Origin: a virus
Direction: 5' to 3' (one strand)
IMG/VR virus record: IMGVR_UViG_3300046373_000172
Coordinates: 23,476 to 87,475 of that record
Length of the DNA: 64,000 bases
Below the pieces are notes generated by a model that was not told where the DNA came from, did not search any database, and was given only the letters and a program-made list of their open reading frames with translations. The translations under genes and the position numbers were made by a program. Numbering within the stretch: position 1 is the stretch's first letter; every line of letters begins with the position of its first letter. Shown here piece by piece: positions 2,622 to 61,916 of the stretch.

Positions 2622-2626
2622 GCGCC

Positions 2627-5600: not shown

Positions 5601-6016
5601 ACCCGTTGATGGCGACGCTGGAAGACGGCATCTACTCCCGCCTGTCGGACCTGAACGCAGCCACCACGCCGGAGCACATCAAGGTGCTGGCCGAACTGGC
5701 GCAGATGAGCCACCACGTGCACAACGACCACGCCGACGCGATCAACTTAGGTACCGAATACGCCTTCGTGCAGCACGGTGTCCAGGAGTGCATCGAGATC
5801 GCTGTGCGCCCGGCATATGCCAAGTACCGCTCGTACTGCCGCAGCATCGGCAGCCCGGCGCTGTTCACGTCGCCGCAGGCCTTCATGCTGTCGCTGAAGG
5901 ACTCGCCGGCCTTCGTCAAAGAGGGTACCGGCCAGACCCTGCTGGTGCCCAAGGTGTTCACGCTGAACAACGAGGAACTGGCGAAATACGGCGTGGATCC
6001 GTTCAAGAATCGCTAG
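2627..6016 (+). CDS. Primase-helicase (AEP-like primase plus ATPase) interrupted by a mini-intein
   Basis: A 1129-residue precursor. The N-terminal part looks like an archaeo-eukaryotic primase core, with FDWDSSD (65-71, the DxD metal pair) and TGGRGYH (101-107, the sGxGxH-type motif). The second half is a helicase-type ATPase whose Walker A GAAGVGK-T is split by an intein at residues 610-759; the Walker B is LIVDEYKP. After splicing the enzyme would be about 979 residues. By analogy with phage primase-helicases it would unwind the fork and lay primers for the family A polymerase encoded downstream. The ATPase cannot be active until the intein leaves, because the Walker A is broken exactly between Lys and Thr. 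Confidence 0.88.
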   Translation: MPNFYYYQKQGGENVWLPSPVADRVRLEDEDRPEFISVLAVSRIIDDEITYEDKLKLTYAGPLYFDWDSSDEQLVIEKVNQFLDHLVTLRVNLEMCKLFATGGRGYHLEIPQSMLMDKIPPKGVLGLPYIYREMAYEMAVDTLDLRIYSGLKGRMWRVANVRRDNGRYKVPIRVSEMRAMTPEMCRELTSSPRRVVEVVNAAYSPELAMIYETGKQKVEDITLKRKRFKPDPEAAKRAHSESIQAAMAGFGLKDGAGFHPIGMQLAQAACTAGLSMEQFITECAGLIANHRGDGERYSTPKKREDELRRMHRYMDGNACYEFSIGAIKSLLAHPAPDLDGVPISAEELKEVIAAADTSAGEEDEYGDVARGITLSKYGVYKWVEGISKRVCAVSFDTSDLLLSSESSTIIGYSSTVLVNGRSVGRQVLETEIFSALNPFNRFAQKYGHTFVGNDQDVRVAMMRFVEAAKKRGSQMYVVKREGLDVLSVPDHPDEFFRSPFVVWAEASEVWTSEELAERGMKMKFLGHPDQRGVMRTDLSLAPSLPSWLKEPGNKELMRLTLENLMSCQKADLMGKLIGWYVSCFWKQIFNHTYSKFPLLHVNGAAGVGKCLGRGTPVLLACGQTCNVEDIRTGDLLMAPDGGVRTVLSTTQGFDRMFRVSQWFEGKPLETYTVNAAHILSLRHYRTGEVLNTNVEDFLDIDGPEDNIYLGWQVPGILEKDLTPRLVEIEIEEMPADDYYGFTIDGDHLFLLGDFTVTHNTETNELLGSFFFYKQEVHTMSPSSTIFALNQHLAASASIPLIVDEYKPAEMKAELHNRMKQMFRDAYNQRQISRGGGTRESDDFRTLQQVEMAAPLVFIAEAAEDEAAVMERVVLATFTRPPAIIGLKNLAKFQQVRQHRHLLGILGQHMAAKIVRTLTFDGFRAEFDALYEVAQNTYMLTEKDLTNTTLTDTERMNKQNAKERSVFNHTVAKYGFQQFRALVNEIVDDESLDPLMATLEDGIYSRLSDLNAATTPEHIKVLAELAQMSHHVHNDHADAINLGTEYAFVQHGVQECIEIAVRPAYAKYRSYCRSIGSPALFTSPQAFMLSLKDSPAFVKEGTGQTLLVPKVFTLNNEELAKYGVDPFKNR
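4454..4903 (+). other. Mini-intein in the Walker A motif of the primase-helicase
   Basis: The insert is in frame and exactly 150 codons long. It begins with Cys right after GVGK and ends with THN directly before Thr. Block A is CLGRGTPVLLACG, block B is around VNAAHILSL (conserved His), block F is YGFTIDGDHLFLLGDFTV and block G is VTHN. There is no room for a homing endonuclease domain, so this is a splicing-only mini-intein. Removing it restores an uninterrupted GAAGVGKT P-loop. Residues 610-759 of the precursor. Confidence 0.95.
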
Positions 6017-6032
6017 ACAGCCGTGCAGAAGT

Positions 6033-6062
6033 TTGATATCGTAGAATTTCCTCTGGTAAAGA
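6033..6062 (+). promoter_or_regulatory. Possible sigma70-type promoter
   Basis: TTGATA and TAAAGA are separated by 18 bases in the 94-base gap before the 6111 gene, which also has an AAAGGA ribosome site. The -10 matches the consensus only partly, so this is a weak call, but this is the largest gap in the replication arm and it precedes a gene followed by its own terminator. Confidence 0.3.
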
Positions 6063-6110
6063 GGTGCTACCCGGAAAGACCGGTCAACATTAACGTTAAA
6101 GGAAACACAA

Positions 6111-6914
6111 ATGGCACTCGTAAACAAAGCACCTGAATTCGACGCTGGCGACGACATGGAAGAAGCAGTCGGTACCGACACAGCTACCCAGACTGTTTCT
6201 GCGGCAGATCGCGTTGCCGCAGCCGCTGCAAAACAGGCAGCTGCTGTTGCAGCTGCGGCCACCACGGCCCCTGCTGTGGTCAAGCCTTCGGCGCTGGCGG
6301 TGGCCAAGCCGGTCATGACGAATCCTCTGGAAGGCCTGAAAGATCTGATCCCGGTCACTTACGGCTCGCTCAAGTCGATCATGGTCACCAGTGGCAACGT
6401 GGTGCTGAAGGACGGCATGGAGACGCTGGGCACCCACGTCGGCCTGGAAATCCTGTCCTACCAAGACCAGTGGGTCTGCTCGCCAGGCGGCGACAGCAAC
6501 GATGAAAAGTCGCTGCCGTACCTGAAATTCTCGGACGATGGCAAAACCGAACGCGAGTCCGGCGAGCCTCTGGCCGACTTTGTGCAGCTGGCCAAAAGCA
6601 ACGGCTACGAAAACGCCAAGATCGTGAAACGTCTGATCGTGGTCGGCGCGCTGGTCTACCCAGGCAAGGACAAGAAGGGCAACCTGATGTCCGAACTGGA
6701 AAACGAAGTCGTGATGATCGATCTGGCGCCCGGCTCGGTCGGCAACTTCATGGCCTACCAGGCCACGTCGATGTTCAAAACTTCGCGGGGTTTGATCACC
6801 CCGGAGCAGGCCCGTATCGTTCGCCTCGAAGCTGTGCCGAAGTCCAAGAAGTCGAAGAACTGGACCGACGCCGAGTTCAAGACGTACAACCCTGAGACGG
6901 ACTACGTCAAGTAA
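6111..6914 (+). CDS. Probable abundant replication accessory protein (ssDNA-binding candidate)
   Basis: A 267-residue product. Residues about 30-65 are a low-complexity Ala-rich, probably disordered stretch; the rest is a compact domain ending in a Lys-rich KSKKSKNW segment. It has its own leader with a good ribosome site (AAAGGA) and is followed by a strong terminator, so it may be made independently and in quantity. Its place between the primase-helicase and a proofreading-type exonuclease is where many phages carry a single-stranded DNA binding protein. I cannot recognise an OB-fold signature, so the role is inference. Confidence 0.7.
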   Translation: MALVNKAPEFDAGDDMEEAVGTDTATQTVSAADRVAAAAAKQAAAVAAAATTAPAVVKPSALAVAKPVMTNPLEGLKDLIPVTYGSLKSIMVTSGNVVLKDGMETLGTHVGLEILSYQDQWVCSPGGDSNDEKSLPYLKFSDDGKTERESGEPLADFVQLAKSNGYENAKIVKRLIVVGALVYPGKDKKGNLMSELENEVVMIDLAPGSVGNFMAYQATSMFKTSRGLITPEQARIVRLEAVPKSKKSKNWTDAEFKTYNPETDYVK

Positions 6915-6934
6915 GCCTCCAACGCTTCACCACC

Positions 6935-6959
6935 AAAGCGACCTTCGGGTCGCTTTTTT
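6935..6959 (+). terminator. Intrinsic terminator after the 6111 gene
   Basis: AAGCGACC, a TTCG tetraloop and GGTCGCTT are followed directly by a run of T. This is a classical Rho-independent terminator 20 bases after the stop of the 6111 gene. Confidence 0.9.
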
Positions 6960-6972
6960 ATAGCGAGAACGT

Positions 6973-7656
6973 ATGGACGAACAGATAAAACGCTACATCA
7001 TCGGCGACACCGAGACGACCGGCCTGCCGCCGAACAAGCATGCCTGCCAGGTAGGGCTGATCGAGATCGACCCGATCACGTTGGACGTGATGTGGGAGAT
7101 CGAGTCGCTGATTGACCCGCTGCATCCGATCGAGCCAGGCGCCCAAGCGATTCACGGCATCTCCGACGCCATGGTGCGCTGCGAGCCGACGATGGCGGAA
7201 TTCATCGACCGGGACTTGGCCGGCGGCTTGTCGGGCAGCATCACCATGATCTGTCATAACGTCAGCTTTGACCTGAGCCTGCTGCAGCCGATCGGCGGCA
7301 TCGACCGCACCATCTGCACGCTGGTCGAAGCACGCCAGTGCATCCGTGGCACCAAGAGCCACAAGCTGGCCGACTTGGCCGAGCACTTCGGCTTCGTGCC
7401 GGACGTGGCGCACAAGGCCTTGGCCGATTGCCACACCACGCGCCTGCTGCTGATCAAGCTGATGGAGATCACCGGCCAGACGCTGGACCAACTAGCCACG
7501 CCGAAGAAGCGCGTGGTGCACGTTCAGCCTTGGGGCATCCACAAGGACAAGCTGCTGGTCGACATCCCGTCCGGCTACCTGACCTGGCTGTTGACCCTGA
7601 AGGACTTGGAACCCAACCTGCGCGAGAGCGTGGAGAAAGCGCTGGCACTGAAATGA
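6973..7656 (+). CDS. DnaQ-like 3'-5' exonuclease (DEDDh)
   Basis: A 227-residue exonuclease. Motif Exo I is GDTETTG (11-17, catalytic Asp and Glu), Exo II is HNVSFD, and Exo III is HKALADC with the DEDDh histidine and final aspartate. The fold and length match the epsilon/RNase T family, which removes 3' nucleotides from DNA or RNA using two metal ions. Because the phage polymerase has its own exonuclease motifs, this stand-alone enzyme may act in repair or end processing instead of replication proofreading. ATG 6973 lies 14 bases after the terminator. Its stop overlaps the next start. Confidence 0.92.
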   Translation: MDEQIKRYIIGDTETTGLPPNKHACQVGLIEIDPITLDVMWEIESLIDPLHPIEPGAQAIHGISDAMVRCEPTMAEFIDRDLAGGLSGSITMICHNVSFDLSLLQPIGGIDRTICTLVEARQCIRGTKSHKLADLAEHFGFVPDVAHKALADCHTTRLLLIKLMEITGQTLDQLATPKKRVVHVQPWGIHKDKLLVDIPSGYLTWLLTLKDLEPNLRESVEKALALK

Positions 7657-7922
7657 CCCCGATTAAAGATCTGCGCGACGTGATGCACGTTGCCAGCTAT
7701 GCAGTAGACACGGCTAAGCTGCTGGCGGCGTTCGGGATTTCTCCGGGCGCTGGCGTGACTCACCTGAACCTGAAAGTGGCGTCCGCTGATATGGTCGAGC
7801 TGACCGTGCGCCGCTACATCACGCAGCCAGAACTGGACGCGCTGATGGTCGCCCTGGAGCAAGAGCCCAGGCCTGTCCTGGTCGACACGCTCTCCGTAAA
7901 GCACACCTTCCCCTGCGTATAA
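7653..7922 (+). CDS. Small hypothetical protein
   Basis: An 89-residue protein starting at ATG 7653 in an ATGA overlap with the exonuclease. It contains alternating beta-like (THLNLKVASADMVELTVRRY) and helical segments, compatible with a small alpha/beta fold. No known motif. It is co-translated with the exonuclease and the MazG-like gene; function unknown. Confidence 0.65.
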   Translation: MTPIKDLRDVMHVASYAVDTAKLLAAFGISPGAGVTHLNLKVASADMVELTVRRYITQPELDALMVALEQEPRPVLVDTLSVKHTFPCV

Positions 7923-7931
7923 GGAACTGCC

Positions 7932-8459
7932 ATGAACATCGGCAAAACCCAAATGATGCAGGACCTCCAACGCTACCTTGCAATCTTCCCGAAAGCACCT
8001 ATGACCTCCTTCGCCCAAAACATCACCACCTTCAACGCCATGTACAAGATGCCAATCGCCCCGGCGCCGCGCTTGATCTCCGCCAAGCGCCTGATCGACT
8101 TCAAGTCGATCCTGGGCAAGGAGCTGAACGAGATCGACGACATCCTGGCCAAGTGGGAAAGCAAGAGCCTGAGCCCTGAAGGCCAGCTCGAACTGCTGAC
8201 TGACATCGCCGACCTGTTGGGCGATCTGCAGGTCTACTGCGCCAGCGAGATGGCCAAGTGGGGCCTGCCGCTGGAAGCCACCTTGCAGATCATCATGGAG
8301 TCGAACTTCAGCAAGATGGGCGCCGACGGCTTGCCGATCTACGACGATCAGGACAAGCTGCAGAAAGGCCCTCACTACTGGAAGCCTGAACCACGTATCA
8401 GCGACATGCTGTCAGGCCGCATCGAAGCCCATCGGCTGCTGATGAAAGCGCCGCTGTAA
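7932..8459 (+). CDS. MazG/PRA-PH-like nucleotide pyrophosphohydrolase
   Basis: A 175-residue all-alpha NTP-pyrophosphatase. The acidic helices KELNEIDDIL and ELLTDIADLLGDLQVY carry the metal-binding Glu/Asp residues. They are followed by the ESNFSKMGADG stretch and KLQKGPHYWKPEP, a signature seen in phage phosphoribosyl-ATP-pyrophosphohydrolase-like proteins. The family hydrolyses (d)NTPs or related nucleotides to monophosphates. In this operon it would feed or clean the nucleotide pool alongside the dNMP kinase and ThyX; a role in lowering (p)ppGpp has been proposed for phage MazG proteins but is not visible from sequence. Confidence 0.85.
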   Translation: MNIGKTQMMQDLQRYLAIFPKAPMTSFAQNITTFNAMYKMPIAPAPRLISAKRLIDFKSILGKELNEIDDILAKWESKSLSPEGQLELLTDIADLLGDLQVYCASEMAKWGLPLEATLQIIMESNFSKMGADGLPIYDDQDKLQKGPHYWKPEPRISDMLSGRIEAHRLLMKAPL

Positions 8460-8461
8460 CC

Positions 8462-9499
8462 ATGGCCATCGCACAATCCCAAGTGCGCTCGCTGGCCCGG
8501 GCGATCGCCAACGGCATCGCCTTGGCCGACCTCGACTCCGAAGAGGTGGCGCCGGGCCGCATCGTGCACACCGACTTGCCGTGGACTGTCCCCGGCTTGC
8601 AGGTGGGCGCGCAGCTGGCCGGCGCCGAGGTGCAGGACTTCCTGGACGCCCCCTTGAGCGTGGACCCGGTCAAGCTGGCCGCCTTCTGGCACAAGACGCT
8701 GTACGACTTGTGGCACACGCCGGGCACCCAGCTGCGCAAGGGCTATATCCTCAACACCTGCCAGTTCCGGCTGTGGCGCCAAGGCCAGCGCATGCTGCGC
8801 TTTGCCATGCCGCCCGGCTCGGACGACATGCAGCTGGAACTGACGACCGGCTTGCAGCTGTCGATGGAAGTGGCCCACACCGCCTACATCTCGCTGCCGG
8901 TGCGTCACTTCGTACGCACCGACGACGACTACTTCGTCGAACTGGCCAACGGCCAGGAGTTCGGCGTGCGCGCCGGCCGGCCGATCATCGAGTCGCCCTG
9001 GCAGTACGACGGGCGCGGCCAGATGTACGACTTGGCGGAGATGCCACGCGGCCCGACCAGCTACGCCTGCCAGCACGATCAGATTGCCCATGTGCGCTCG
9101 CTGATTTACGTGCACAAGGAGCGCTTCAAGGCCAACTTCGAAGGCCTCGACGTCGCGCTGCAGGCCATGCGCTTCCTCACCAACAACACGCCCTGCCCGG
9201 ACTTGCTGCCGCAGGTGCGCCGGGCGCCCGTGACCACGCAGCTGGACAAGGAGCGTGAGCGGATCCTGTGGGACGCGATCAGCGTCATGGAATCGAGCAT
9301 GGCGGACCGGGCCAAGCTGATCGCGCTGGAGTCCTTGCTGGTGCCGACGGTGATGTCGCTGTCCAAGTTCCGGCGGGCGATCTTCTCGTCGCCGCGCTAC
9401 CCCTTCACGATGACGATACAAAAACACGATGCCGTGCTGAACACGGTGCGCCAACTTTACGAGACGGAGGTCCCATGCAGTCTAAAACGCAATCAATGA
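8462..9499 (+). CDS. Hypothetical protein of the nucleotide/replication operon
   Basis: A 345-residue protein starting two bases after the preceding stop. It is rich in Trp, Tyr and His (FWHKTLYDLWHTPG; TCQFRLWRQGQRM) with a predicted helical C terminus. No motif allows a family assignment. Its last 25 bases overlap the next gene. The codon use looks like its neighbours, so it is probably a long-standing part of the operon. Confidence 0.75.
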   Translation: MAIAQSQVRSLARAIANGIALADLDSEEVAPGRIVHTDLPWTVPGLQVGAQLAGAEVQDFLDAPLSVDPVKLAAFWHKTLYDLWHTPGTQLRKGYILNTCQFRLWRQGQRMLRFAMPPGSDDMQLELTTGLQLSMEVAHTAYISLPVRHFVRTDDDYFVELANGQEFGVRAGRPIIESPWQYDGRGQMYDLAEMPRGPTSYACQHDQIAHVRSLIYVHKERFKANFEGLDVALQAMRFLTNNTPCPDLLPQVRRAPVTTQLDKERERILWDAISVMESSMADRAKLIALESLLVPTVMSLSKFRRAIFSSPRYPFTMTIQKHDAVLNTVRQLYETEVPCSLKRNQ

Positions 9500-9696
9500 C
9501 CGAGGTGGTCGTGTCGACCGGGGTGGCGTTCTTGATTTCGGCGGTGCTGCAGCAGTTCGTCGTGGCGTCTCTGTTCCACCTCAACACCTCGCCGGCGGCG
9601 AACCTTGGGCTGACCTGCTTCTTCACGGTCGTCTCGCTGGTGCGGTCGTACCTCTTCCGCAGATTCTTCAACTGGCTTCACAGGAGCAATGCATGA
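9475..9696 (+). CDS. Small two-helix membrane protein (DUF7220-like)
   Basis: A 73-residue protein with two hydrophobic helices (about 11-31 and 42-57) and a conserved-looking end, SLVRSYLFRRFFNWL. The pattern MQSKTQS, two membrane helices, then S-x-x-R-S-Y-x-x-R-R-x-F-N is what I recall of the phage DUF7220 family. Function is unknown; such proteins are often annotated as inner-membrane or holin-like, but this one lies far from the lysis genes. ATG 9475 overlaps the previous gene by 25 bases. Confidence 0.7.
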   Translation: MQSKTQSMTEVVVSTGVAFLISAVLQQFVVASLFHLNTSPAANLGLTCFFTVVSLVRSYLFRRFFNWLHRSNA

Positions 9697-10250
9697 ACCC
9701 TAAATCCATTCTGATCGGCCTGGCCGGGCCGGCCGGCGCCGGCAAGGACACCGTCGCCGATTACCTGGTCGAGAAGCACAGCTTCCAGAAGCTGTCCTTC
9801 GCCGGCCCGCTCAAGGCGATGCTGGCCGCCGGCGGCATGCCGGAGCCGCAGGACCGCGCGCTGAAGGAGTTAGCCATTCCAGGCTTCGACTTCAGCTGGC
9901 GCCAAGCCGCCCAGTCACTTGGGACGGAGTGGGGCCGCGAGCTAGACCCGGACCTGTGGATCAAGCTGGTAGAGAAGCGCATCGCGTCGATCGACAACGT
10001 GCTGTCCTCCCGCGGCTCCCGCATCGTGCTGTCGGATGTGCGGTTTGTGAACGAGGCGGAAATGATTAACCGTATGGGCGGCTCGGTGGTGCACATCCTG
10101 GGTCGCCAAGCAGACTTAGGGCTGGCCGCGTCTCATGTCAGCGAGGCCAAGCTGATGATCGAGGATCAGGATCTGATCATCGACAACCGCGGCGACATCG
10201 AGCAGCTGCACGCCGAGATCGAAGAAGTCATGTACGCGGTGGGCAATTGA
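9693..10250 (+). CDS. Deoxynucleoside monophosphate kinase
   Basis: A 185-residue P-loop kinase. Walker A is GPAGAGKDT (about 11-19), a LID-like segment lies around GTEWGRELDPDLW, and VLSDVRFVNEAE carries the Walker B-type aspartate seen in phage dNMP kinases. The family phosphorylates dNMPs to dNDPs and lets phages recycle nucleotides from degraded host DNA. It sits between the MazG-like enzyme and the DNA polymerase, consistent with a precursor pathway. Starts at ATG 9693 overlapping the previous stop. Confidence 0.88.
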   Translation: MNPKSILIGLAGPAGAGKDTVADYLVEKHSFQKLSFAGPLKAMLAAGGMPEPQDRALKELAIPGFDFSWRQAAQSLGTEWGRELDPDLWIKLVEKRIASIDNVLSSRGSRIVLSDVRFVNEAEMINRMGGSVVHILGRQADLGLAASHVSEAKLMIEDQDLIIDNRGDIEQLHAEIEEVMYAVGN

Positions 10251-10513
10251 TGGAGCGCTCCGCTGACCCGATCGACAACGCCAGCGCCGAGACTGACTTG
10301 GCGGACGAGCAGGCGGTGCTGCGCCGGCGCCATGCCGAAGCGCTGCGCATCCGGCGCACCGCCATCGCCTTGGCCGACGGCGACTTCAACGGCATCAACT
10401 GCGTGGAGTGCTACGACGAGTTGCCGGCGGTGCGGATCGCCGACCACCGGATGCTGTGCACACCTTGCGCTTCAGCGCAGGAGAAGAAAGACAAACTGAA
10501 AGGGATACGATGA
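10250..10513 (+). CDS. TraR/DksA-like C4 zinc finger protein
   Basis: An 87-residue protein. A helical N-terminal half (residues about 10-45) leads to a C4 finger, NCVECYDELPAVRIADHRMLC ending CTPC, the TraR/DksA signature of two CxxC pairs about 17 residues apart. Short members of this family bind the secondary channel of bacterial RNA polymerase and mimic DksA plus ppGpp. It may therefore adjust host transcription; inferred from the family. ATG 10250 overlaps the kinase stop by one base. Confidence 0.82.
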   Translation: MERSADPIDNASAETDLADEQAVLRRRHAEALRIRRTAIALADGDFNGINCVECYDELPAVRIADHRMLCTPCASAQEKKDKLKGIR

Positions 10514-13500
10514 AACGAACCCGCATTGGCTACGATATGTCAGCATTTTTATGGAACGCCCTGCTGTACGGCAAGGACGTAGAGAACGGGCACCAAGCCA
10601 TCCACAAGGAGAAGCCTTGCTGGATCAACTCCTGGCACCACGGCTACGACAACGTCGTGCCGCGCATGGCCGAGTTGCTGACCAAGTACCGCCTGAACCC
10701 GATCGACATGATCCTGGTTTTCGAGGGTAAGAATTCCAAGTCCAAGCGTCTGATGATCGACAAGAATTACAAGCAGGGCCGCGAGCATCCGGAAGATGCC
10801 TACGTTGAATTCCTGACGCTGCGCGACAAGGTCAAGGCGCTCTGGCTCAGCCTCGGCGCCCAGGTGCTGACGCAGGACTATGCCGAGGGTGACGACACGC
10901 TGGCCTGGCTGGCCGAGAACACCGAGGACGATCTGATCATCGCCACCTTCGACAACGACTTGTCGGCGCTCAACGGCGTCAACGGGTATGGCGCCACGAC
11001 CACCGTCTGGGTCAACGACCTGGAGGCGCACAACAAGTACGGCATTTTCGACTACCACCTGATCACCACCTACAAGGCGCTGGTCGGCGATTCGTCCGAC
11101 AACATCAAGGGCTGTGTCGGCTTCGGCCCTAAAACGTTCCTGAAGTTCTGCGACCAGTATGGCTACGACGGCCTGCAGGAGCTGCACAACCTGCTGTCGA
11201 TGTCCGACTTGTCGCCGCTGGCCGAGATGGCCGCCTCCGGCAAGCACCCGCTGGTGGCGATGATCGTCGACCAGGGGCCGGACGTGATCCGCTGCTTCGA
11301 CCTGGCCAAGCTGCGCCCCGAGTGGGTCAACACGATGGCCTACCCGTTGACGTGGGAAGCGGGCATGGTAACGCCGCTGAGTGCTGCGTCAGATCCACTG
11401 ATGAAGAAGTATTACGGCCGCGCGCGGCTGGTGTCAGCCGGCTCGTTCGCCGCGGCGATCGAATGGGCCAAGCCCTTGATTCTGGCGTCGCGGGATGTGG
11501 CGCTGGATATCGAAACCACGACGAGCGAGGAGTCTTCCGAATGGCTTGAACGCAAAGGCAACATCGATGGCGTCGACGTGTTCGGCTCCACCCTGTGCGG
11601 ACTTGGGCTGACCTTCGGTCCGAACAACCAATACACGCTGTACTTTTCCGTCAACCATGCAGACACCGACAACATCGCGTCGGAAGACCTGCGCCAGTTC
11701 ATCGCCTGGATCCCACAGGACAAACACCTGGTGATCCAGAACACGAACTTCGAGCTCCCCGTGCTGTACCAGGCATGGGGCGACAAGCAGCTGGACAACG
11801 GCTTCTACGGCTACCTGCCCAATGTGCTCGATACCAAACTGGAAGCTTCGTACCAGGACGAGAACAGCCCACTTGGGCTGAAGCAGCGCTCCCTGAAGAT
11901 CTTGAATTATAAGCAGCAGACGTACGAGGAAACGACGCGCTTGACCGGCACCCCTTCCGAATTGTTCAAGGGGGGCCGGCTGGTGTCGACGCAGTACAAA
12001 AAGCAAATGGTCGGCACCGGGAAGTTCGAATTGGTGCCTCTGCTGGACGACAGCGGAGTTCCGATGCTGGACGAAGACGGCGCCCAAGTGCTGCAGCAGG
12101 GTGGCGAGATCATGAAGGAAGAACTGGTGCTGGTGCCTTCCGGCCGCACGATGACCGCCGTCGTCGACCTGAAAACCGGCAAGCGCCTGCACTATATTTA
12201 TGCCGATCAGGACGAGATCGATTCCAGCGAAGAGTACGACCCGTCCGACACGGCGCCGGAAATGGTGCCAGTGGTCGATACCGAAACGCGCCAGTACAAG
12301 ATGCATGAGTTGCCGGCTGCGCACGTCTTCGGTTACGGCGCTGACGATCCGATTTGCACGATCGCCTTGCACAATTTCTACAAGCTGTTCATGCAGCTGG
12401 AGCACACGTACGAGACCTACCTGAAGGTCGAGATCCAGGCGGCGTATGCCAACGCCATGGCGTTCGTCTCCGGCATCCCGTTCTCGATGGAGCGCATGAT
12501 GTCCTGCGAGCGGGAGGACAATGCGTCGGTAGCCAAGTCGTGGCCGGTGCTACGCTCCTTCCTGATCGACAAGGGCTGGGCCGGCACCGTGCCTCCCGTT
12601 TACACGGTGGACATCACGGCGGCGCAGGTGAAGGAAGCGTTCGAAATCGTCGCCGGCCGCAAGCTGGAGACGATGATGCGCACGGTCTCCAAGTTGGCGA
12701 TCTTCGCCCGCGAAGACGGCGAGCCGATCTTTGCCGAACTGCTGTCGCGGGTCGACAAGGAGAAAACGCCGGAAGCGGTCCAGGCGTTTAACGCCTACGT
12801 GCTGGGCCGGTTCAAGGGCGAGCCGGAGTTCAACGCCGACAGCCCGGTGCAGATGAAGCGCCTGCTGTACGAGACCTTGGGCCTGCCGGTCCGCTTGACC
12901 AATAAGGTGACGGACGCCCAGCGCGCCAAAGGTGAGACTCAGGGCACCGCGAAGACGGATGACCTGGCGCTGCAAACGGCGCTGCACTATGACAGCGAGT
13001 TCACCGACCTGTCCGTGCTCAAGGCGATCCAGGTCATGAAGCAGTGCGGCACCCGGTCGAAGCTGTACTACAAGCCGTACCGAAACTTCCCCCACTGGCG
13101 TGATGGCTTGTTGCACCCGTCGACGAACCAGTGCGCGACGGTCACGCGCAGGAACAGCGCCAGCGACCCGAACTACACCCAGTGGCCTGCCAAGGGTGAA
13201 GGCTTGCGCTTCCGGGAGTGCATTGTGGCGCGTAAGCGGGGCCGGGTCATCATCTCGTCGGACTGCTCCGGCCAGGAGTTGCGCTTGGCGGCGGACTTTA
13301 GCCGGGACCCGAACATGCTGTCCTGCTATATCGGCGAGAACCTGCGGGACATCCACTCGATGGTGGCTGCGGCGGCAACGAAGTACTTCTGGGATCGGGA
13401 GTGGTCGTACGAAGAATTCTATGCTGCGTTGAAGGGTCTGGACGAAGAATTGGCTGAGAAGGTGGACGCCCTGCGCTCCAAGTCGAAGGCGGTGACGTTC

Positions 13501-54212: not shown

Positions 54213-54736
54213 CATAAGGGCCAAAGCCGACCATGTTTGATGCTAGCGATCGTCGAAACAGTTGTTGAAAAACTAGCTGCGATCTGCTTCACCGAAACAC
54301 CGTCAAAAATCTGCTGGCGTATAAGCGCAACGATTTCAGGTGTTAGACGCTTGGCCCGTTTTGGGTTGTTGGCACCGTGAAACCTTCCTGTCTTGGCCGT
54401 ATGCTGTTGATTCTCTTTTGGCGTGACCCATTCAAGATTGTTGACGTGGTTATTAGCCTTATCGAAGTCTTTATGGTTGACCTGCGGCCGGGTGTCGGCC
54501 GGCAGGAAGTGCAAAGCTACAAGTCGGTGAATTGCGTGTTTGCGCACTACGCCTTCGCGTGACAAGCAAACATAGCAGTAACCTTGAGCATCTCGAACTT
54601 GAGTAGGATTGCGACCAGCAACCGCTCGACTTCCGCCTGGACTTTTAACCCTTCGAGAAAGACTCTTGACATTGCCGAAGTTACTGACAATGTATAAGCC
54701 GTGAAAACCTTGGATAGACGCCCAAACTTCAAGCAT
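54212..54736 (-). CDS. HNH homing endonuclease (NUMOD4 type)
   Basis: A 174-residue protein started at ATG 54736 (AGGAG seven bases upstream). The N terminus EVWASIQGFHGLYIVSNFG is a NUMOD4 domain. KHAIHRLVALHFLP, QVNHKDFDKANNHVNNLEWV is the HNH core. A C-terminal helix-turn-helix (SVKQIAASFSTTVSTIASIK) reads DNA. Free-standing homing nucleases of this kind spread between related phages. Confidence 0.92.
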   Translation of the reverse strand: MLEVWASIQGFHGLYIVSNFGNVKSLSRRVKSPGGSRAVAGRNPTQVRDAQGYCYVCLSREGVVRKHAIHRLVALHFLPADTRPQVNHKDFDKANNHVNNLEWVTPKENQQHTAKTGRFHGANNPKRAKRLTPEIVALIRQQIFDGVSVKQIAASFSTTVSTIASIKHGRLWPL

Positions 54737-55448
54737 TAGGTTCTCCTGGAAACACGGGAAAGCACTGCTGCGTAGTCGAGTCAAACTTCATATGGGTCGC
54801 GCCGTCCAAAAAGGCTTGACACCTAACCTTATAATCGTCAGCAGGACAAATTGCTGGCGGCACCGAAACCCATTGATTCGCGTGCCAATACCAAAGACGG
54901 CCCGGAACGTCGGCCGGCGGCTTTCTAACCGGCTTCTTGATGACAAGTCGCGGCGTACGCATCGGCCGATGATAAGCATCAGCGGGCCGCCCCAAGTCGC
55001 GCGCCCGTTCGAGTTCTAGCACGTGCTGCACTTCGAGTTCCATTTCCCGCCAGACGCATGCGGCCCAATCTTGTCGTGCGACTTCGATCGACGGGAAATA
55101 GACGCCCGGCGACAAGATGTGATGAAAACCGCGTGCACAAGCCTTGCAGTTGAAGCGGCGCCGCGCGATGCGGATCGGCACCAAGTTGCGCACGGAAAAG
55201 TCAAACGGATCCCCGTTCAGTTGGGTAATCTGAAACATCGGAGCTGATCCGTAGAGCAAGACCCAAGCCAAGTCCGGCCCTTGGTATAGCTGGCCGTCGA
55301 CATGGGCCACGAGTCGGTTTTGCACGACCGAAGTCAGTAGTTTTAGTGTGCCGTCCGCCTTAATGCGGTAGAGCTGCGTGTGTAAGAGTCGAAAATTTTG
55401 TGTCACCAGTGCGGTGTTGATCATGGGAAACTTTCTAAAGTTGGACAT
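54729..55448 (-). CDS. Hypothetical protein with degenerate HNH-like segment
   Basis: A 239-residue frame if started at 55448; ATG 55424 is an alternative with a slightly better ribosome site (AGAAAG). The stretch QLYQGPDLAWVLLYGSAP and LNGDPFDFSVRNLVPI follows the layout of an HNH nuclease but lacks the paired His residues, and CKACARGFHH may bind a metal. It overlaps the real HNH gene by eight bases, so both are expressed together. Confidence 0.65.
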   Translation of the reverse strand: MSNFRKFPMINTALVTQNFRLLHTQLYRIKADGTLKLLTSVVQNRLVAHVDGQLYQGPDLAWVLLYGSAPMFQITQLNGDPFDFSVRNLVPIRIARRRFNCKACARGFHHILSPGVYFPSIEVARQDWAACVWREMELEVQHVLELERARDLGRPADAYHRPMRTPRLVIKKPVRKPPADVPGRLWYWHANQWVSVPPAICPADDYKVRCQAFLDGATHMKFDSTTQQCFPVFPGEPNA

Positions 55449-55924
55449 TTCTGCCAAAACTTGCGTAAAAAGATTTTAGCACAAGGTTCTCACCCAAGTC
55501 CACACGATCCCAAGTCGAAAAGCCCCTATATATAAGACAAACCTAGTAGATATCTCATTAGTATGGGGAGTTCTCATTTTCGTGTTCGAAACGCGCTTTT
55601 GACTTTTTGACTTTTTTTTTGTGTCAGTCCATTTTTTCTGTGGCGTGATTTTCCTTATTAGGCGATTTTCAAAAAGTGGCCCTTAATCATGCGATTCTCA
55701 CAGGTCGTCTGTCATGCCTTTCATGCAACCTTGGGCATGTGACAACACCGAAACAGTGTTTTCGTTACCCTGACGCAATGTTGTTTATTTTGGATGTCTA
55801 AAAGAGTATACATTACGTAAATGTTTCTTCTGTTACTACATATATTCTCACACCAAAAAACCTGTTACTAGTAGCATGACTTTCGCACTTACACGAACCC
55901 AAGCAACATACTATAGGAAGTGAG
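55449..55924. other. AT-rich intergenic region with divergent promoters
   Basis: No gene found. A - strand extended -10 (TGCTAAAAT, 55473-55481) fits a promoter for the 54729 gene. A T-rich block near 55605-55620 contains TTTTGACTTTTTGAC and T9. GTGTCA and TGTGACA boxes echo those at 56197-56261. A + strand -10-like TACTAT lies about 15 bases before the 55925 start. Confidence 0.5.
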
Positions 55925-56167
55925 ATGTTTACATTTTTGAAAGAACTTGTCTTTCCGACACCGTCTGTACCAAAATTACTACGCTCTGCGCTCGAAGATA
56001 GCCAGCGCGAGTTGCTTTTGCTTGACATCCAGCAGCAGCACATGCTAGCCGAGGCTGAAAATTACTCCGCGGCAAGGTTGAAGCACGAAAACAGGGTAAA
56101 ACGACTGACTGACTCGCTTAAAAGGCTTGAGAATCAAGCACTTACCCGCACTGGTCCGGATGATTGA
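55925..56167 (+). CDS. Small coiled-coil protein
   Basis: An 80-residue protein; GGAAGTGAG precedes ATG 55925. Residues 20-70 are helical with heptad-like leucines (ELLLLDIQQQHMLAEAE, RVKRLTDSLKRLE). First gene of the right-hand early operon. AT-richer than the genes that follow. Function unknown. Confidence 0.7.
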   Translation: MFTFLKELVFPTPSVPKLLRSALEDSQRELLLLDIQQQHMLAEAENYSAARLKHENRVKRLTDSLKRLENQALTRTGPDD

Positions 56168-56196
56168 CACGCCACTGACTCAACTGACTCGATTTT

Positions 56197-56261
56197 TGTC
56201 AATTGACACTGACACAGCCGTGTCAGTCAGTTTTGTGTCATCTGTGTCATACTGCGTGTCA
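56197..56261. promoter_or_regulatory. Cluster of TGTCA boxes with a central dyad
   Basis: Seven TGTCA/TGACA boxes in 65 bases (56197, 56204, 56210, 56221, 56236, 56245, 56257), with a further TGACA at 56165. ACTGACAC and GTGTCAGT form a perfect dyad with a 4-base centre at 56208-56227. One box is part of TTGACA, a perfect -35. Likely an operator array for the operon beginning at 56314. Confidence 0.6.
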
Positions 56262-56313
56262 GACCCGCACAAGTTGTGCGGCCTCCCGCACAAACCTCCA
56301 AAAGGACCAAGAA

Positions 56314-57144
56314 ATGATCCAAAATCCTGCCATCGGCCAGGCCTCCGGCATGTTCACCATCATCGGCAACGCCCCTAGTCAGAGCGGCCACCGCTACTGG
56401 GTGGTGAGGTGCCACTGTGGCGCCGAGCACGTCGCACGCGGCGCTCACCTCAAGGTCGGCCGCATGCCCAAGTGTGACCACGCACAGGGCAAGATGACCC
56501 TGATAGACAGGGAAATCAGCAAGCAAGCCCAGAACCTGCCACCCGAGGGCTTGGGCAAGTTCGTCCAGGGCCAGTCCAACGAGATCCAGGACCTGAGAGA
56601 CACCGTCGAACTGTTCGACGGGCGCATCAGCGCCGCAGTGCGCCTGGCCAGCCACACCGCCGACAGCCTGAAGGACGTGCAACGCTTGGACATCGCCGAC
56701 ATCCGGGACCAGCTCCGGGAACTCAAAGCCTACGTCATGCGCATGCCCGAGCCGCCCGAAGCCCCTCCCACGCCCGAGGTGGACGAGCACGGCCGGACTT
56801 GGGTCGACACCGACCGCAACGCCGAGACCGACCCGAAGACGCACCAGCGCAATCCCTTCCACTTCGACAACCTGTTCCGGGACTTCCCTAAGGAGACCTG
56901 GCCAGAGCGCCGCAAGGCCAACTTGGAAGAGGCCCACCGCCTGCTGGCCCTGCCGTACAACTTTCGCACGCTGGAACAGATGGAAGAGTGCCTGTCGCGC
57001 TTCACGGTCGAGTACCGCCTGCTGGTCAAGCAGAGCCTGCAAACGACCCATGACCCTGTGCTGAGCCAGCAGCTCAGCGACTTGAACCTGTTGATGCGCC
57101 GGCAGGTGAATCCGTTCGCCTGGAACCGTAAACCCGAGGAGTAA
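56314..57144 (+). CDS. Hypothetical protein with small Cys-containing N-terminal domain
   Basis: A 276-residue protein starting at ATG 56314 (AAAGGA upstream). The N terminus YWVVRCHCGAEHVARGAHLK then KCDH has the Cys/His pattern of a small metal-binding phage domain. A long helix with Asp/Arg (residues about 90-150), a Pro-rich linker and a helical C terminus follow. Function unknown; first gene of the dense right-hand cluster. Confidence 0.72.
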   Translation: MIQNPAIGQASGMFTIIGNAPSQSGHRYWVVRCHCGAEHVARGAHLKVGRMPKCDHAQGKMTLIDREISKQAQNLPPEGLGKFVQGQSNEIQDLRDTVELFDGRISAAVRLASHTADSLKDVQRLDIADIRDQLRELKAYVMRMPEPPEAPPTPEVDEHGRTWVDTDRNAETDPKTHQRNPFHFDNLFRDFPKETWPERRKANLEEAHRLLALPYNFRTLEQMEECLSRFTVEYRLLVKQSLQTTHDPVLSQQLSDLNLLMRRQVNPFAWNRKPEE

Positions 57145-57310: not shown

Positions 57311-57679
57311 ATGCCCACCATCCGAGAAAACCTGATCCAGGCCATCGCCGCCGTCAAGGCCCGCCCTGAACACCTCTTCGACCTCGACAAGTACATACAA
57401 GAGCGAGAGTGCGGCACCCTCTTCTGCACCGCGGGTCTGCTCTGCCACACGCCACACTTCCAAGGGATGGGCTGGCACATGGAGGGGTCCTATCCTGCGG
57501 TTTCTGACACTGGAAGCTTCGACGAGCAGGCAGAGATCGCTTTGGGCGAGCACACCTACGGCCGCCTCTTCTGTCAGCGTGGCGGCGGTTACTGGGACGG
57601 CGAGTTGCTCGAACCAGGCATGACCGACAAAGACCTGGCGCTGGCCCGCCTGCACCGACAACTGGAGGAGTACGCATGA
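57311..57679 (+). CDS. CGT-x-x-C family protein, copy 1
   Basis: A 122-residue protein. N-terminal NLIQAIAAVKARPEHLFDLDKY, then CGTLFCTAGLL, a GxxYWD segment and a C-terminal DKDLALARLHRQLEEYA. The same frame of motifs returns in three nearby genes (57676, 58289, 60268). The CGTxxC with a following G resembles small phage and bacterial proteins of unknown function. Confidence 0.8.
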   Translation: MPTIRENLIQAIAAVKARPEHLFDLDKYIQERECGTLFCTAGLLCHTPHFQGMGWHMEGSYPAVSDTGSFDEQAEIALGEHTYGRLFCQRGGGYWDGELLEPGMTDKDLALARLHRQLEEYA

Positions 57680-58059
57680 GCATCCTGAATAACCTCGACA
57701 TCGCCATCCAGGCCGTCACCGACCAACCCGAAAAGCTGTTCGACTTGGCCTCCTACATCTGCAAGACCGAGTGCGGCACGCTGTACTGCACCGCCGGCGT
57801 GCTGGCGCAGCACCCGCACTTCCAGGCCTTGGGCTGGACGCTGGCCTGCGGCTTGGTCGGGATCCGGAGCACCCAAGGCACGCTCAGCCTCCAGCAAGGC
57901 GCAGACAGCCACCTCGGCGAAGACGCCTGGAATCGCCTGCTGGCGCCGCGCGGAGAAGGCGTCTGGGACCAGATCTACATGACCAAGCCCATCTCCGACA
58001 AAGGCCTCGCGCTGGCCCGCCTGAAGGCCCAGGGCGCCATCTACGCCCGCAATCCATGA
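57676..58059 (+). CDS. CGT-x-x-C family protein, copy 2
   Basis: A 127-residue paralogue: PEKLFDLASYICKTECGTLY followed by CTAGVL, PRGEGVWD, and DKGLALARLKAQ. Overlaps copy 1 by four bases. It is closest to copy 1, so the pair probably arose by the latest duplication. Confidence 0.8.
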   Translation: MSILNNLDIAIQAVTDQPEKLFDLASYICKTECGTLYCTAGVLAQHPHFQALGWTLACGLVGIRSTQGTLSLQQGADSHLGEDAWNRLLAPRGEGVWDQIYMTKPISDKGLALARLKAQGAIYARNP

Positions 58060-58292
58060 CGCCCTACGCCCTGCCGGTGCAAGTCGTCGGTAACTACCTC
58101 CTCGACGCCTGCGGTCAGGAAATGGCGCACCTGCTTGACGCCAGCGAAGAACAAAAGGCCTTCCTCGTCAAGTGCATCAACGACCACCACACCCTCATCC
58201 AGGCCCTGAAACAGGCCACCCACTTGGCCCACAGCCAGCAAAACGCCGATCTGTTCAAGATCGTCACCCGAACCTTGGAGAAGACGAAATGA
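58056..58292 (+). CDS. Small helical protein
   Basis: A 78-residue protein, ATG 58056 in an ATGA overlap. EEQKAFLVKCINDHHTLIQAL resembles EFIVHAVNNHAKLRDAL in the gene at 63492-63774, so the two may be distant copies. Function unknown. Confidence 0.7.
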   Translation: MTPYALPVQVVGNYLLDACGQEMAHLLDASEEQKAFLVKCINDHHTLIQALKQATHLAHSQQNADLFKIVTRTLEKTK

Positions 58293-58672
58293 CACCACGA
58301 GAAAATATCCAACTGCTCATCAGCCTGATCGAGCAGGAGCCTGGATCCCAGATCAATCTGAACAAGTTCAACAGCGACTGCGGCACGATTCACTGCAACC
58401 TTGGGCTGGCCGGCACGCATGAACACTTCAAGGCGCAGGGCCTGGTGATGGGCTGGCACGGCAAAAAGCCTCGCCAAGTCCTCGTCCTCACTCTGAACGG
58501 CAGCAGCCCAATAAACGAGACTGAAACGCTCAACGCGATGTTCGGCCCGCAGTCCTGGGAGCGCTGCTTTGCGCCGGCTGGCTTGGGCCTGTGGGACATC
58601 GACCTGCTGCTCGGATCGCACAAAGACCTGGCGCTGGCCAGACTCAACAAACAACTGGAGCAACTGCCATGA
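58289..58672 (+). CDS. CGT-x-x-C family protein, copy 3
   Basis: A 127-residue paralogue: NIQLLISLIEQEPGS, DCGTIHCNLGLAG, FAPAGLGLWD and HKDLALARLNKQLEQL. The middle of the protein differs strongly from copies 1 and 2 while both ends are kept. Confidence 0.8.
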   Translation: MTPRENIQLLISLIEQEPGSQINLNKFNSDCGTIHCNLGLAGTHEHFKAQGLVMGWHGKKPRQVLVLTLNGSSPINETETLNAMFGPQSWERCFAPAGLGLWDIDLLLGSHKDLALARLNKQLEQLP

Positions 58673-59058
58673 CCCTGCAAGAAATCTTCGACAAAGTCAG
58701 TGCCCACCTGCTGACCCAGAACGCCAAGTCTATGGACGACGGCATCTGCTCTTACCGCGGCCAAAACGGCCGGATGTGCGCAGCTGGCCGTCTCATCAAA
58801 GACGAGTTTTACGCTAGCGCTTTCGAGGGCCGCACTTCAAGGAGCAAAGCCGTCGTGAAAGCCTTGGTCGCCTCGGGCGTGTTCGACTGGAGTGAGGTTT
58901 CCCTGGTCCGGCCAGACTCGGAGAACTTCGAAGGCCACAAGCTCGACCTGGTGTGCTCGTTGCAGATTCTCCACGATGACGATCGTCCGGCCTACTGGCC
59001 TAGCCGGCTGCGTGTCCTGGCACGGCGTTACGACCTCACCTTCAAGGAGCCAAAATGA
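58669..59058 (+). CDS. Small Cys-containing phage protein
   Basis: A 129-residue protein. SMDDGICSYRGQNGRMCAAG followed by RLIKDEFYA is a C-x-Y-x-G...C-x-x-G pattern shared by small phage proteins of unknown function. The C-terminal half is basic and helical. Overlaps the previous stop. Confidence 0.72.
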   Translation: MTLQEIFDKVSAHLLTQNAKSMDDGICSYRGQNGRMCAAGRLIKDEFYASAFEGRTSRSKAVVKALVASGVFDWSEVSLVRPDSENFEGHKLDLVCSLQILHDDDRPAYWPSRLRVLARRYDLTFKEPK

Positions 59059-59306
59059 GCCTTTTCGAAATCGTCGAATCCGACATCGCCGTCCTGCACG
59101 GCGACCAAGGCTGGGTCAACGTCGGCGCCCACGCCATCAGAATCACCAACCACGGCGGCAACCTGCAAGTCGAGGCCTTCGCCAACACCAACGAGGACGA
59201 CGCGCTGGCTTGGCTGCGCGTGAACAAGGAGACGGCCGTCAACGCCGGCGGGCAAGGGCCGGACGAGCTTGGGCAGGCCTTCGAGGAGACCTTCCATGCA
59301 TCCTGA
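59055..59306 (+). CDS. Small acidic protein
   Basis: An 83-residue acidic protein with a beta-rich first half (DIAVLHGDQGWVNVGAHAIR) and a helical end. Overlaps the next start by 11 bases. Function unknown. Confidence 0.68.
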   Translation: MSLFEIVESDIAVLHGDQGWVNVGAHAIRITNHGGNLQVEAFANTNEDDALAWLRVNKETAVNAGGQGPDELGQAFEETFHAS

Positions 59307-59610
59307 CACCGCCAAAGTGCTGCGACAGGCTATTCAGGCCCTGGGCGGAGTCCAGTACACCTGCTTGGCCATCTGCGACGCGGTGCCGGAAGACTTGGAG
59401 AGCGCCGAGGACTTGAAGGACGACGCCATCTGGCTGTACCGCACAATCGCTTTGGCCGGCCCCGACAACAGCGCAGCAGACGGCTTCGACGGTACAAGCA
59501 AGCCCTGTTGGTGGAACAAGGAGTCACCCTTCAAAGAGGAACGCACAGCCATGCTCGAACTTGCAGCGCTGTCGGCCGAGCGCGTACTGGAGATCGAAAA
59601 TGCATCCTGA
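59296..59610 (+). CDS. MHPDTAK family protein, copy 1
   Basis: A 104-residue protein: MHPDTAKVLRQAIQ, YTCLAICDAV, CWWN and ERTAMLELAALSAERVLE. Clearly a paralogue of the next gene over its full length. Confidence 0.78.
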   Translation: MHPDTAKVLRQAIQALGGVQYTCLAICDAVPEDLESAEDLKDDAIWLYRTIALAGPDNSAADGFDGTSKPCWWNKESPFKEERTAMLELAALSAERVLEIENAS

Positions 59611-60271
59611 CACCGCCAAGATCCTGCGCCGGGCGGTCCACTACCTGCCCATCACCACGTACAGCTGCCTGGCCATTAACCGAGCGGTCCAAGAGCGGAA
59701 GGATCTGTACACAGGGTGTGAGCGCTTCGACCTGCGCAGTGACGCCGGCCAACTCTACGGCCAAATCAGCTTTGCCCTGGGAGACGATCCCGACAACTGG
59801 GAGGCGAACGAGTGCCACCCGCCGCCCTGGTGGAATAGCCCGGACCCACACCTGCAAGAGCGCACCGACATGCTCACCTTAGCCGCCCTTTCCGCTGAAC
59901 GCATCCTGGAGGCCGAAATGGCACTGCGCGCTGAAAAGCTGGCCATCCTGAAGAGGGCCTATAAGGTCCTGGGGACCAACAACCTTGGGCTGTGCTACGC
60001 CATTGAGTATGCTGCGCTCCCTGGCTCCTTCGAGTCCAAGGAGCGCAGGGCCATGCGCTACCTGCTTGGCTACGTCAAGCGAAGCCTGAAAGGCTACTCC
60101 TGGTTACAGGGTTGGCTGGAGGGTCAAGACATCGTGGTGTTTCCCAGGGATTCCCGAGGCCGTCTTACCTACGGCCCTGTACAACACGCACGCCTCCTGG
60201 CTACCCGAAAGGCATGGTGTCAGTGGCTCGCCAACTGCTACGAAGAAGACCTCCAGAAAGGATTGACATGA
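59600..60271 (+). CDS. MHPDTAK family protein, copy 2 with extra domain
   Basis: A 223-residue protein. Residues 1-110 repeat copy 1 (MHPDTAKILRRAV, YSCLAINRAV, PPWWN, ERTDMLTLAALSAERILE). The C-terminal 110 residues are an added helical, basic domain (RAMRYLLGYVKRSLKGYSW). The two copies overlap by 11 bases. Confidence 0.78.
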   Translation: MHPDTAKILRRAVHYLPITTYSCLAINRAVQERKDLYTGCERFDLRSDAGQLYGQISFALGDDPDNWEANECHPPPWWNSPDPHLQERTDMLTLAALSAERILEAEMALRAEKLAILKRAYKVLGTNNLGLCYAIEYAALPGSFESKERRAMRYLLGYVKRSLKGYSWLQGWLEGQDIVVFPRDSRGRLTYGPVQHARLLATRKAWCQWLANCYEEDLQKGLT

Positions 60272-60621
60272 CCATCCAAGACAACCTCAAGACCCTCATC
60301 GACTTGGTCGAGAACGAACCTGAACACCTGATCGATCTGGCCTTTTACGAGTGCGGCAGCGCCTGCGGCACCCTGCACTGCACGCTTGGGCTGGCCGCCG
60401 CGTCGGGCAAGTTCCCTTTCGGCGTCAAAGACGGGACGCTCACGAGCGTCCTCGGAGACGACTTCAGCACCAAGAGCCTGGACCCACTCTTTGGCCCGAA
60501 AGCCTACAGCAACCTGTTCGCCACAGCCGGAGTTGGGCTCAGGGATAAAAAATTCCCATACATTGGCGACAAAGCCTTGGCCCTCGCCCGCCTGCGCGCC
60601 CAGCTGGAGTCCCTGTCATGA
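60268..60621 (+). CDS. CGT-x-x-C family protein, copy 4
   Basis: A 117-residue paralogue: NLKTLIDLVENEPEHLIDLA, ACGTLHCTLGLA, ATAGVGLRD and DKALALARLRAQLESL. Separated from the other copies by the MHPDTAK pair, so the block has been shuffled after duplication. Confidence 0.8.
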   Translation: MTIQDNLKTLIDLVENEPEHLIDLAFYECGSACGTLHCTLGLAAASGKFPFGVKDGTLTSVLGDDFSTKSLDPLFGPKAYSNLFATAGVGLRDKKFPYIGDKALALARLRAQLESLS

Positions 60622-60986
60622 ACCCGCCAAGACTCAACATCGACAATCTCCTGTACGGAGACCAGCCTGTGCCAGCCAGAAACGCCTTGGAGCGCAAGGT
60701 CGTCTGGAACCTGCTCACCTACCTGCAAACGGCTGGCTTCCACGTTCAAGCTGTCAACGACGGCGAGAACATCGACAAGGTCGCCACGCCGCAAGAGGCC
60801 ATGGAGCTGGTCTTCAACCTGGACGATTGCGTCGTCTACATGCACAAGCCCGGCTACGGCAGTCACGGCGTCCAGATCGTGCTTGGGAACGGCGTCGACG
60901 TCATCAGCGACCACAGCTATTTCGAAGACGACCGGGACGGCTTCCGCCAGGTGATGGACGACTTCGACGCGGAGGACTTGGGATGA
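60618..60986 (+). CDS. Hypothetical protein
   Basis: A 122-residue alpha/beta protein with an acidic C terminus (YFEDDRDGFRQVMDDFDAED). Helix LERKVVWNLLTYLQTAGF, strands HVQAVNDGE and CVVYMHK. Function unknown. Overlaps both neighbours by four bases. Confidence 0.7.
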   Translation: MNPPRLNIDNLLYGDQPVPARNALERKVVWNLLTYLQTAGFHVQAVNDGENIDKVATPQEAMELVFNLDDCVVYMHKPGYGSHGVQIVLGNGVDVISDHSYFEDDRDGFRQVMDDFDAEDLG

Positions 60987-61234
60987 ACCTGCCAGAAACG
61001 ATCAGCGCCATGCGAGAGATGGCCTCCAGCCCGGTCTACGCCTTCCGCCAGCCGGCGCTCACGTCCGCCGCCTTCTACCTGAACGCCCAGCGGATCGAAA
61101 ACGACGCCTTGCGCCGCAAGGTCGAGGTGTTGAGCGCCATCGTCAGCCGTCGGCGGCCAGCGCCGCTCGACATCACGCCTGAAGAATTCGAAGCCCTCCT
61201 CGAAATCGGCGTCATCCAAAGGAGCAACACATGA
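60983..61234 (+). CDS. Small helical protein
   Basis: An 83-residue protein, ATGA-coupled on both sides. Helical with a basic segment SRRRPAP and DITPEEFEALLEIG at the end. Function unknown. Confidence 0.65.
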   Translation: MNLPETISAMREMASSPVYAFRQPALTSAAFYLNAQRIENDALRRKVEVLSAIVSRRRPAPLDITPEEFEALLEIGVIQRSNT

Positions 61235-61581
61235 CCAAGATCGCACTGCTCCAGGCAGCCAGGCTCTACCTGACGACCCACGAGGCTCACAGGTGGCGCG
61301 GCCTGTGCATTGCCTTGGGCGAGTCCGCCTATGCCGACCACCCCGACGACTACGACCTGCAAGCCTTGTGCGACGAGGTGCAGCAGCAGATCACCGACGC
61401 GCTGGAAGACCTGGGTGGCTACGGCTACGGCTACCTGGGTAAGTACTTGGATAACCTCTGGGGTCATGAGGTGACCCCAGAAGCGCTGCTGCAAGCCCGC
61501 CTGCTTTGGCTGGACAGAATCATTCTGGCCGAGACCATGGGCGAGCCCTTCCCACTGCCACCTATTCCGGAGCCAACATGA
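61231..61581 (+). CDS. GEP-tail family protein, copy 1
   Basis: A 116-residue protein: RGLCIALGESAY, QQITDALEDLG, EALLQARLLWLDRIILAE and a final MGEPFPLPPIP. Its neighbour at 61578 has the same order, so they are paralogues. Tyr/Gly-rich centre (GGYGYGYLGKYL). Confidence 0.72.
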   Translation: MTKIALLQAARLYLTTHEAHRWRGLCIALGESAYADHPDDYDLQALCDEVQQQITDALEDLGGYGYGYLGKYLDNLWGHEVTPEALLQARLLWLDRIILAETMGEPFPLPPIPEPT

Positions 61582-61916
61582 ACCACCTCCACACCCTGCT
61601 CGTTCGCACCCGCGAAATCTTCTCCTACAGGGACCAAGGCTACTATGAGGGCATCTGCCTCGCGGCGGAGATCGCCCGTGTAGAACTTGGCTATGGCCAG
61701 AACAACCTGCAAGGTTACCGGGCCTACGAAGGCCTGGACTTCCATATCGCCCAAGCCCTGGGCGCCCAAGAGTACTACCCTCAGTGGCTGCGCCGGCAAC
61801 TCGACCGGCCTGTGACTGATGAGGAAGCGTACCGAGGCCGCCTTGCCTGGCTGGACGCGATGACCATTGCCGCTGAAAAGGGCGAACCCCTACCACCGCC
61901 TGCTTTACCGAAGTAA
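61578..61916 (+). CDS. GEP-tail family protein, copy 2
   Basis: A 112-residue paralogue: EGICLAAEIARVELGY, DFHIAQALGAQEYYP, EEAYRGRLAWLDAMTIAAE and KGEPLPPPALP. Coupled to copy 1 by ATGA. Function unknown. Confidence 0.72.
   Translation: MNHLHTLLVRTREIFSYRDQGYYEGICLAAEIARVELGYGQNNLQGYRAYEGLDFHIAQALGAQEYYPQWLRRQLDRPVTDEEAYRGRLAWLDAMTIAAEKGEPLPPPALPK

Follow-up and report, generated by a model that had tools for sequence, protein, structure and literature searches.

The gene chain at positions 57311–61916 of the window (the whole stretch of 64,000 nucleotides that was analyzed, corresponding to positions 23476–87475 of a virus contig of 87,475 bases) occupies a conserved, hypervariable slot beside the gene g242, the position of which is kept in related environmental bacterial viruses. 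Our preferred, and still tentative, reading is that the chain is the window phage's version of a hypervariable accessory slot, the products of which may act early and non-enzymatically as small binding proteins against host targets. The features of the region are listed below in window coordinates.

54729..55457, minus strand: g242, conserved slot-marking gene, divergent side facing the cluster (homologues in relatives)
55458..55924, no strand: AT-rich divergent intergenic region, probable control region (GC content)
56242..57144, plus strand: g313, N-terminal region like HNH-family DNA-binding proteins (phrog_374, E 1.3e-9)
57311..57679, plus strand: A1, CGTxxC protein (AlphaFold pLDDT 90.9)
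57676..58059, plus strand: A2, CGTxxC protein (closest to A1, 45%)
58056..58292, plus strand: o78 (no PHROG match)
58289..58672, plus strand: A3, CGTxxC protein (BLASTP paralogy)
58669..59058, plus strand: O129, CxYRG...GxxCAxG family (phrog_17693)
59055..59306, plus strand: o83 (no PHROG match)
59296..59610, plus strand: B1, MHPDTAK domain, possibly a very divergent C-type domain (BLASTP paralogy, profile tests)
59600..60271, plus strand: B2, fusion of an MHPDTAK domain with a C-type domain at about residues 106–223 (phrog_8421, hhalign)
60268..60621, plus strand: A4, CGTxxC protein (BLASTP paralogy)
60618..60986, plus strand: P122 (phrog_4158 family, E 1.9e-20)
60983..61234, plus strand: o83b (no significant PHROG match)
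61231..61581, plus strand: C1, five-helix C-type protein (AlphaFold pLDDT 85.5)
61578..61916, plus strand: C2, five-helix C-type protein (profile relatives, alignment)

The original prediction had described a tightly coupled operon with four copies of a CGTxxC protein (A) and two each of an MHPDTAK protein (B) and a GEP-tail protein (C), and the layout bears this out: all eight genes are present at the coordinates it had given, and the 13 genes of 57311–61916 form an unbroken chain of overlaps, which measure 11 bp upstream of B1 and of B2 and 4 bp everywhere else. Third-position GC of the eight A, B and C genes was high (0.71–0.89). The paralogy claimed within each family is real by all-against-all BLASTP comparison: A pairs shared 30–45% identity (E 4e-32 to 1e-14), B1 and B2 shared 49.5% (E 1.6e-24), and C1 matched C2 with E 6.9e-7 (Z = 10.8 against shuffles). 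Gene-order shuffling gave p 0.09 for same-family neighbours in the window phage; adjacency in a single genome is therefore weak evidence, and analysis of the slot across phages was used instead.

The CGTxxC motif of the A family lies at residues 34–39, not at the protein end. C-G-T-x-x-C-x-x-G was invariant in 43 of 43 aligned proteins, A1–A4 included; since these relatives were picked by the CGTxxC motif, its invariance is not independent evidence. Similarity in the wide CGTxxC family extends beyond the motif: 45 of 126 proteins scored above every one of 20 shuffles of their own sequence that left the motif in place, where 6 would be expected. Judged by sequence, A belongs, as a divergent branch, to a phage superfamily that is very common (phrog_889/phrog_30739/phrog_13468, CGTxxCxAG[WH]A). 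No window A copy had a direct significant PHROG match (best E 0.035, A2), so the claim is one of superfamily kinship, not of membership of a PHROG as built; the close relative L003 matched with E 6.6e-5. Proteins of phrog_889/phrog_30739 share with A the CGTxxC..G core, a conserved L-F stretch and a C-terminal helix, and also occur as tandem copies (three or more in L006 and L074), whereas the window A copies form a separate branch with CGT[LI]xC[TN]xGL and the ending DKxLALARL. The AlphaFold model of A1 (pLDDT 90.9, pTM 0.86) had no match in the PDB (best E 1.7) and a weak match to an unnamed protein among viral models (E 0.025, TM 0.64); no sequence relatives were found in solved structures. 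CGTxxC genes near NAD-salvage-like genes (ribose-phosphate pyrophosphokinase-like and nicotinamide phosphoribosyltransferase-like, named from sequence only) were seen at L003 1181–5616 and L005 1–1213.

A fifth copy (A5) is encoded on the plus strand at 2701–3090 of the same virus record, outside the window; its neighborhood at the other contig end (L139, record 1–12000) is another run of small same-direction genes. The terminase gene of a relative, G021, is split between its two contig ends, so contig ends in this phage group are probably arbitrary, in which case A5 would lie about 4.8 kb downstream of the C2 stop and in the same direction. The A family thus numbers 5 copies in the window virus, and 1, 2, 3 and 2 copies were counted in four other virus records of 85–93 kb. 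Single-protein tblastn searches with A2, A5, B2 and C1 against isolated phages gave no matches. A and B profile searches for related loci and a genome scan also gave none, their patterns being too strict, and DNA motif patterns were therefore used to find relatives.

The GEP tail, originally taken as the signature of the C family, was not common to the aligned relatives; the actual signature is CxA[IL]...RLxWLD. Direct matches of C1 and C2 to phrog_8421 reached only E 0.0097 and 0.079, respectively, and a four-relative profile built without window sequences detected them with E 1.9e-4 and 1.8e-3; by profile comparison, C1 and C2 fall in the phrog_8421 superfamily. Residues 106–223 of B2 match as a C-type domain (phrog_8421, E 4.4e-7; hhalign, E 2.9e-7, 93%; A7 profile, E 1.6e-10) and only the first half of the protein resembles B, which makes B2 a fusion of a B domain with a C-type domain. 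C1, C2 and the C-type half of B2 all carry CxA[IL]...RxxW(L/I)D. B2 matches the PHROG significantly and differs from phrog_8421 in its fusion with the B domain; C1 and C2 alone match weakly (E 0.01–0.08). B1 and the first half of B2 may represent a very divergent C-type branch: hhalign gave 44% over 27 columns against the phrog_8421 superfamily, and in a comparison with shuffles the first half of B2 (B2N) scored 8.2 bits, above all 1000 of them, and B1 had p 0.005.

The starts of B1 and B2 (59296 and 59600) share a 20-nt identical junction, ATGCATCCTGACACCGCCAA, including the stop of the preceding gene. This fits in-place duplication of B, which had been proposed for all three families; the A and C copies, by contrast, are old and have orthologous copies recurring in other phages. 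The AlphaFold model of C1 consists of five helices (pLDDT 85.5), and its best matches among viral structure models (probability near 1, E 0.016–0.5) were mostly uncharacterized Burkholderia phage proteins, many of them from BcepSauron. In Bcep22-like phages a lone C gene sits between the genes for the small and the large terminase subunit, outside such a slot, which counts against the accessory-slot reading.

The O129 family occurs in up to four places per phage elsewhere. At L203 436–1522, a tandem O129-type pair stands in the g242 slot of a relative, replacing A or C genes. P122-family genes were found near C genes in L160 and L161. The superfamilies of A and C (phrog_889/30739, phrog_8421) and the O129 family (phrog_17693) are in PHROGs without functional annotation, and phrog_4158, the P122 family, has no function assigned.

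The slot was recognized in records G001, G003 and G014–G018, the terminase of which is 48–56% identical to that of the window phage. All of them contain g242, and A genes, C genes or both lie to its divergent side; in G001 the A gene is at another place in the record, at a distance of about 22 kb if the record is circular. Since these records had first been found via A or C motifs, a second sample was drawn by terminase profile alone. A terminase search with the single window protein returned no matches; the search with a terminase alignment succeeded and gave nine large records (G030–G038, terminase 46–54%). C was present in 7/9 of them (1–4 copies), A in 4/9 and g242 in 8/9, and wherever both C and g242 occurred (6/6), C was found to the divergent side of that gene, its closest copy lying about 1.0–1.2 kb away. 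Four more distant records (terminase 33–37% identity) contained A in three cases and C in none. Homologues of g242 in relatives (28–37% identity) adjoin the slot wherever both are on the contig. In order from g242, the slot contents were AAA, one to five C genes (C, CC, CCC, CCCC or CCCCC), two O129-type genes, or no gene of these families. Of 99 slot genes, taken in part from records that A or C had first led to, 18 matched phrog_8421, C being the most frequent recognizable family; the only functional names were HNH-type proteins (3) and one weak transcriptional-regulator match.

The divergent region beside g242 has a GC content of 0.37–0.42 per 250 bp vs. 0.61 for the window; the corresponding values in relatives are 0.46–0.52 vs. 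0.58–0.62. A sigma-70 promoter scan of the region found no more than chance, which weighs against the preferred reading, and an Rfam RNA scan gave none above threshold. The position and direction of the chain and its AT-rich divergent flank suggest an early gene run. Homologues of g313 recur in the slots of relatives (L151 homologue, E 8e-7). Just upstream of g313, GTGTCA/TGACAC sequences are clustered at 56160–56270 (the window has 24 in all, 7 of which fall in some 100 bp here) and are possible repressor sites; the corresponding region of G001 (L151 5904–6049) contains three near-identical palindromes of the ACACTGTCGACAATTGTTTACAGTGT type, which are candidate operators. Elsewhere in the window, at 2627–6016 on the plus strand, a large ORF of replication type resembles a primase/helicase; an intein-like insertion follows its GAAGVGK, begins at about residue 609 and ends in ...VTHN before TETN, and appears to interrupt a Walker A motif.

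The slot could instead be a regulatory module whose proteins bind DNA or RNA polymerase and regulate transcription of the phage itself, each with a site or partner of its own. Its place at a divergent control region, the resemblance of g313 and its slot homologues to HNH-family DNA-binding proteins, the palindromes of G001 together with the repeated GTGTCA sites of the window, and the all-helical model of C are consistent with this. However, neither A nor C had a significant match to a DNA-binding family in Pfam or PHROGs, and a variation of 0–5 copies among close relatives is not expected of regulators; we consider a regulatory module unlikely.

Between relatives at 81–94% terminase nucleotide identity, the late arm was alignable over a median of 92% vs. 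4% for the slot (46 ordered pairs, not independent). Two phages at 94% terminase identity carry C and CC in their slots, respectively, and at 92% CCCC stands against CCCCC. The A tree pairs the two G002 copies with the two G004 copies (support 87/84 and 90/86) and not with one another; the C tree joins C1 to a copy from G017 (99/83), and one from G016 to one from G015 (99/93). Many other forks of both trees are weak. Such cross-phage pairing indicates that the copies are older than the phage split and were kept one by one. The expectation of diversifying, individually retained paralogues is thus upheld, with slot turnover far faster than that of the rest of the genome and the same families in tandem in relatives. 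The fast change in copy number and the many unique slot genes would also suit a largely neutral accessory expansion, with short genes gained by duplication and lost by recombination without strong selection, and hypervariable accessory slots can also carry neutral or metabolic cargo. Neutrality appears rather unlikely, as the copies have unbroken reading frames, retain their core residues and have orthologues that persist in divergent phages.

The chain had also been put forward as one undescribed multi-gene system, and this part of the original prediction was not supported. A, C and O129 are unrelated by profile comparison and assort independently among relatives, which may carry C alone, A alone, a pair of O129-type genes or no member of the three; the chain is therefore not one fixed multi-gene system. 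A common origin of A, O129 and C was dropped, the families being unrelated in the same comparison. We also find it very unlikely that the paralogues form one hetero-oligomeric complex, with the operon as a single machine: the tight gene overlap and the proximity of A, C, O129 or P122 to each other in several phages would agree with such a complex, but the independent assortment of the families, their varying copy number and the unrelatedness of A, O129 and C speak against it.

Conserved ends and a varying center had been expected throughout. This holds for A, where residues 51–80 are more variable than the ends (permutation p = 0.001) and the variable center coincides with a predicted beta hairpin (residues 55–64) and its flanks in the A1 model; in the C proteins, the C-terminal RLxWLD helix is the one element that stands out. 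The variable center of A might point to variation of the centers by a diversity-generating retroelement or a comparable mutagenic system, but this is of negligible probability, given that the record had no RVT_1 match (reverse transcriptase), control genomes did give matches, and the divergence, length changes included, is spread through the proteins.

The invariant residues are few and structural-looking (C, G, T, C and G in A; Cys, Arg, Trp and Asp in C), with no obvious catalytic triad or metal site. Together with the variable center of A, they favor host-directed stoichiometric binding proteins, the copies of which are specialized by target. In the accessory-slot reading that we prefer, the slot genes would be the first transcribed away from the AT-rich divergent region beside g242, opposite to the late genes, and would be expressed early. 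A few families of small proteins (A, C/B and O129) fill the slot in tandem copies, and these proteins would act as non-enzymatic, stoichiometric binders. Their fold would be maintained by the conserved residues (CGTxxC...G in A; Cys, Arg, Trp and Asp in C), and each copy would grip a different host protein, such as a component of defense, transcription or replication, via its variable surface. Tandem duplication, divergence and swapping would let the lineage retool against changing hosts. We infer a counter-host function for the slot proteins, which constitute an interchangeable set of small, probably host-binding proteins. A bolder form, which we regard as doubtful, sees the slot beside g242 as an arsenal dedicated to counter-host action throughout the lineage: two or three small folds unrelated to each other (CGTxxC, five-helix C and O129) would have undergone repeated tandem expansion, each copy inhibiting a different host defense or takeover target, and the A fold would be a novel protein structure.

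A close parallel is found in the Burkholderia jumbo phage BcepSauron, where a sequence search identified 18 C-type copies in the genome; 13 of the 14 consecutive genes 390–403 (MK552141; L168 3992–8917 = 237991–242916) are of the C type. Annotations in this array read 'hypothetical' or 'histidine kinase?', and some are doubtful (histidine kinase, HTH Cro). The array resembles the slot in its tightly packed tandem C-type paralogues, with an O129-type gene (BcepSauron_405) alongside; it differs in its 13 copies and in its location in an unrelated jumbo phage, without g242 and with no A-type gene found in the search. Phages such as T4 have early accessory regions in which small and variable genes that are not essential are tightly packed close to early promoters. 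The slot shares with them small variable genes in tight runs; it differs in that a few families come back, as tandem paralogues, at one fixed site. The open literature searched contained no papers on the A, B, C or O129 families and no description of a slot with tandem A, C or O129-type arrays or of the BcepSauron array; the families themselves are already in PHROGs, and the slot with its tandem arrays is the part for which no description was found.

A fixed, recognizable site that is swapped and stocked in tandem offers an ordered way to collect candidates for host takeover and counter-defense, and would let copy number be compared with host range. A structure of A would be informative by itself, since its confident model has no PDB match, and the C family reaches 18 copies in one phage though PHROGs assign it no function.
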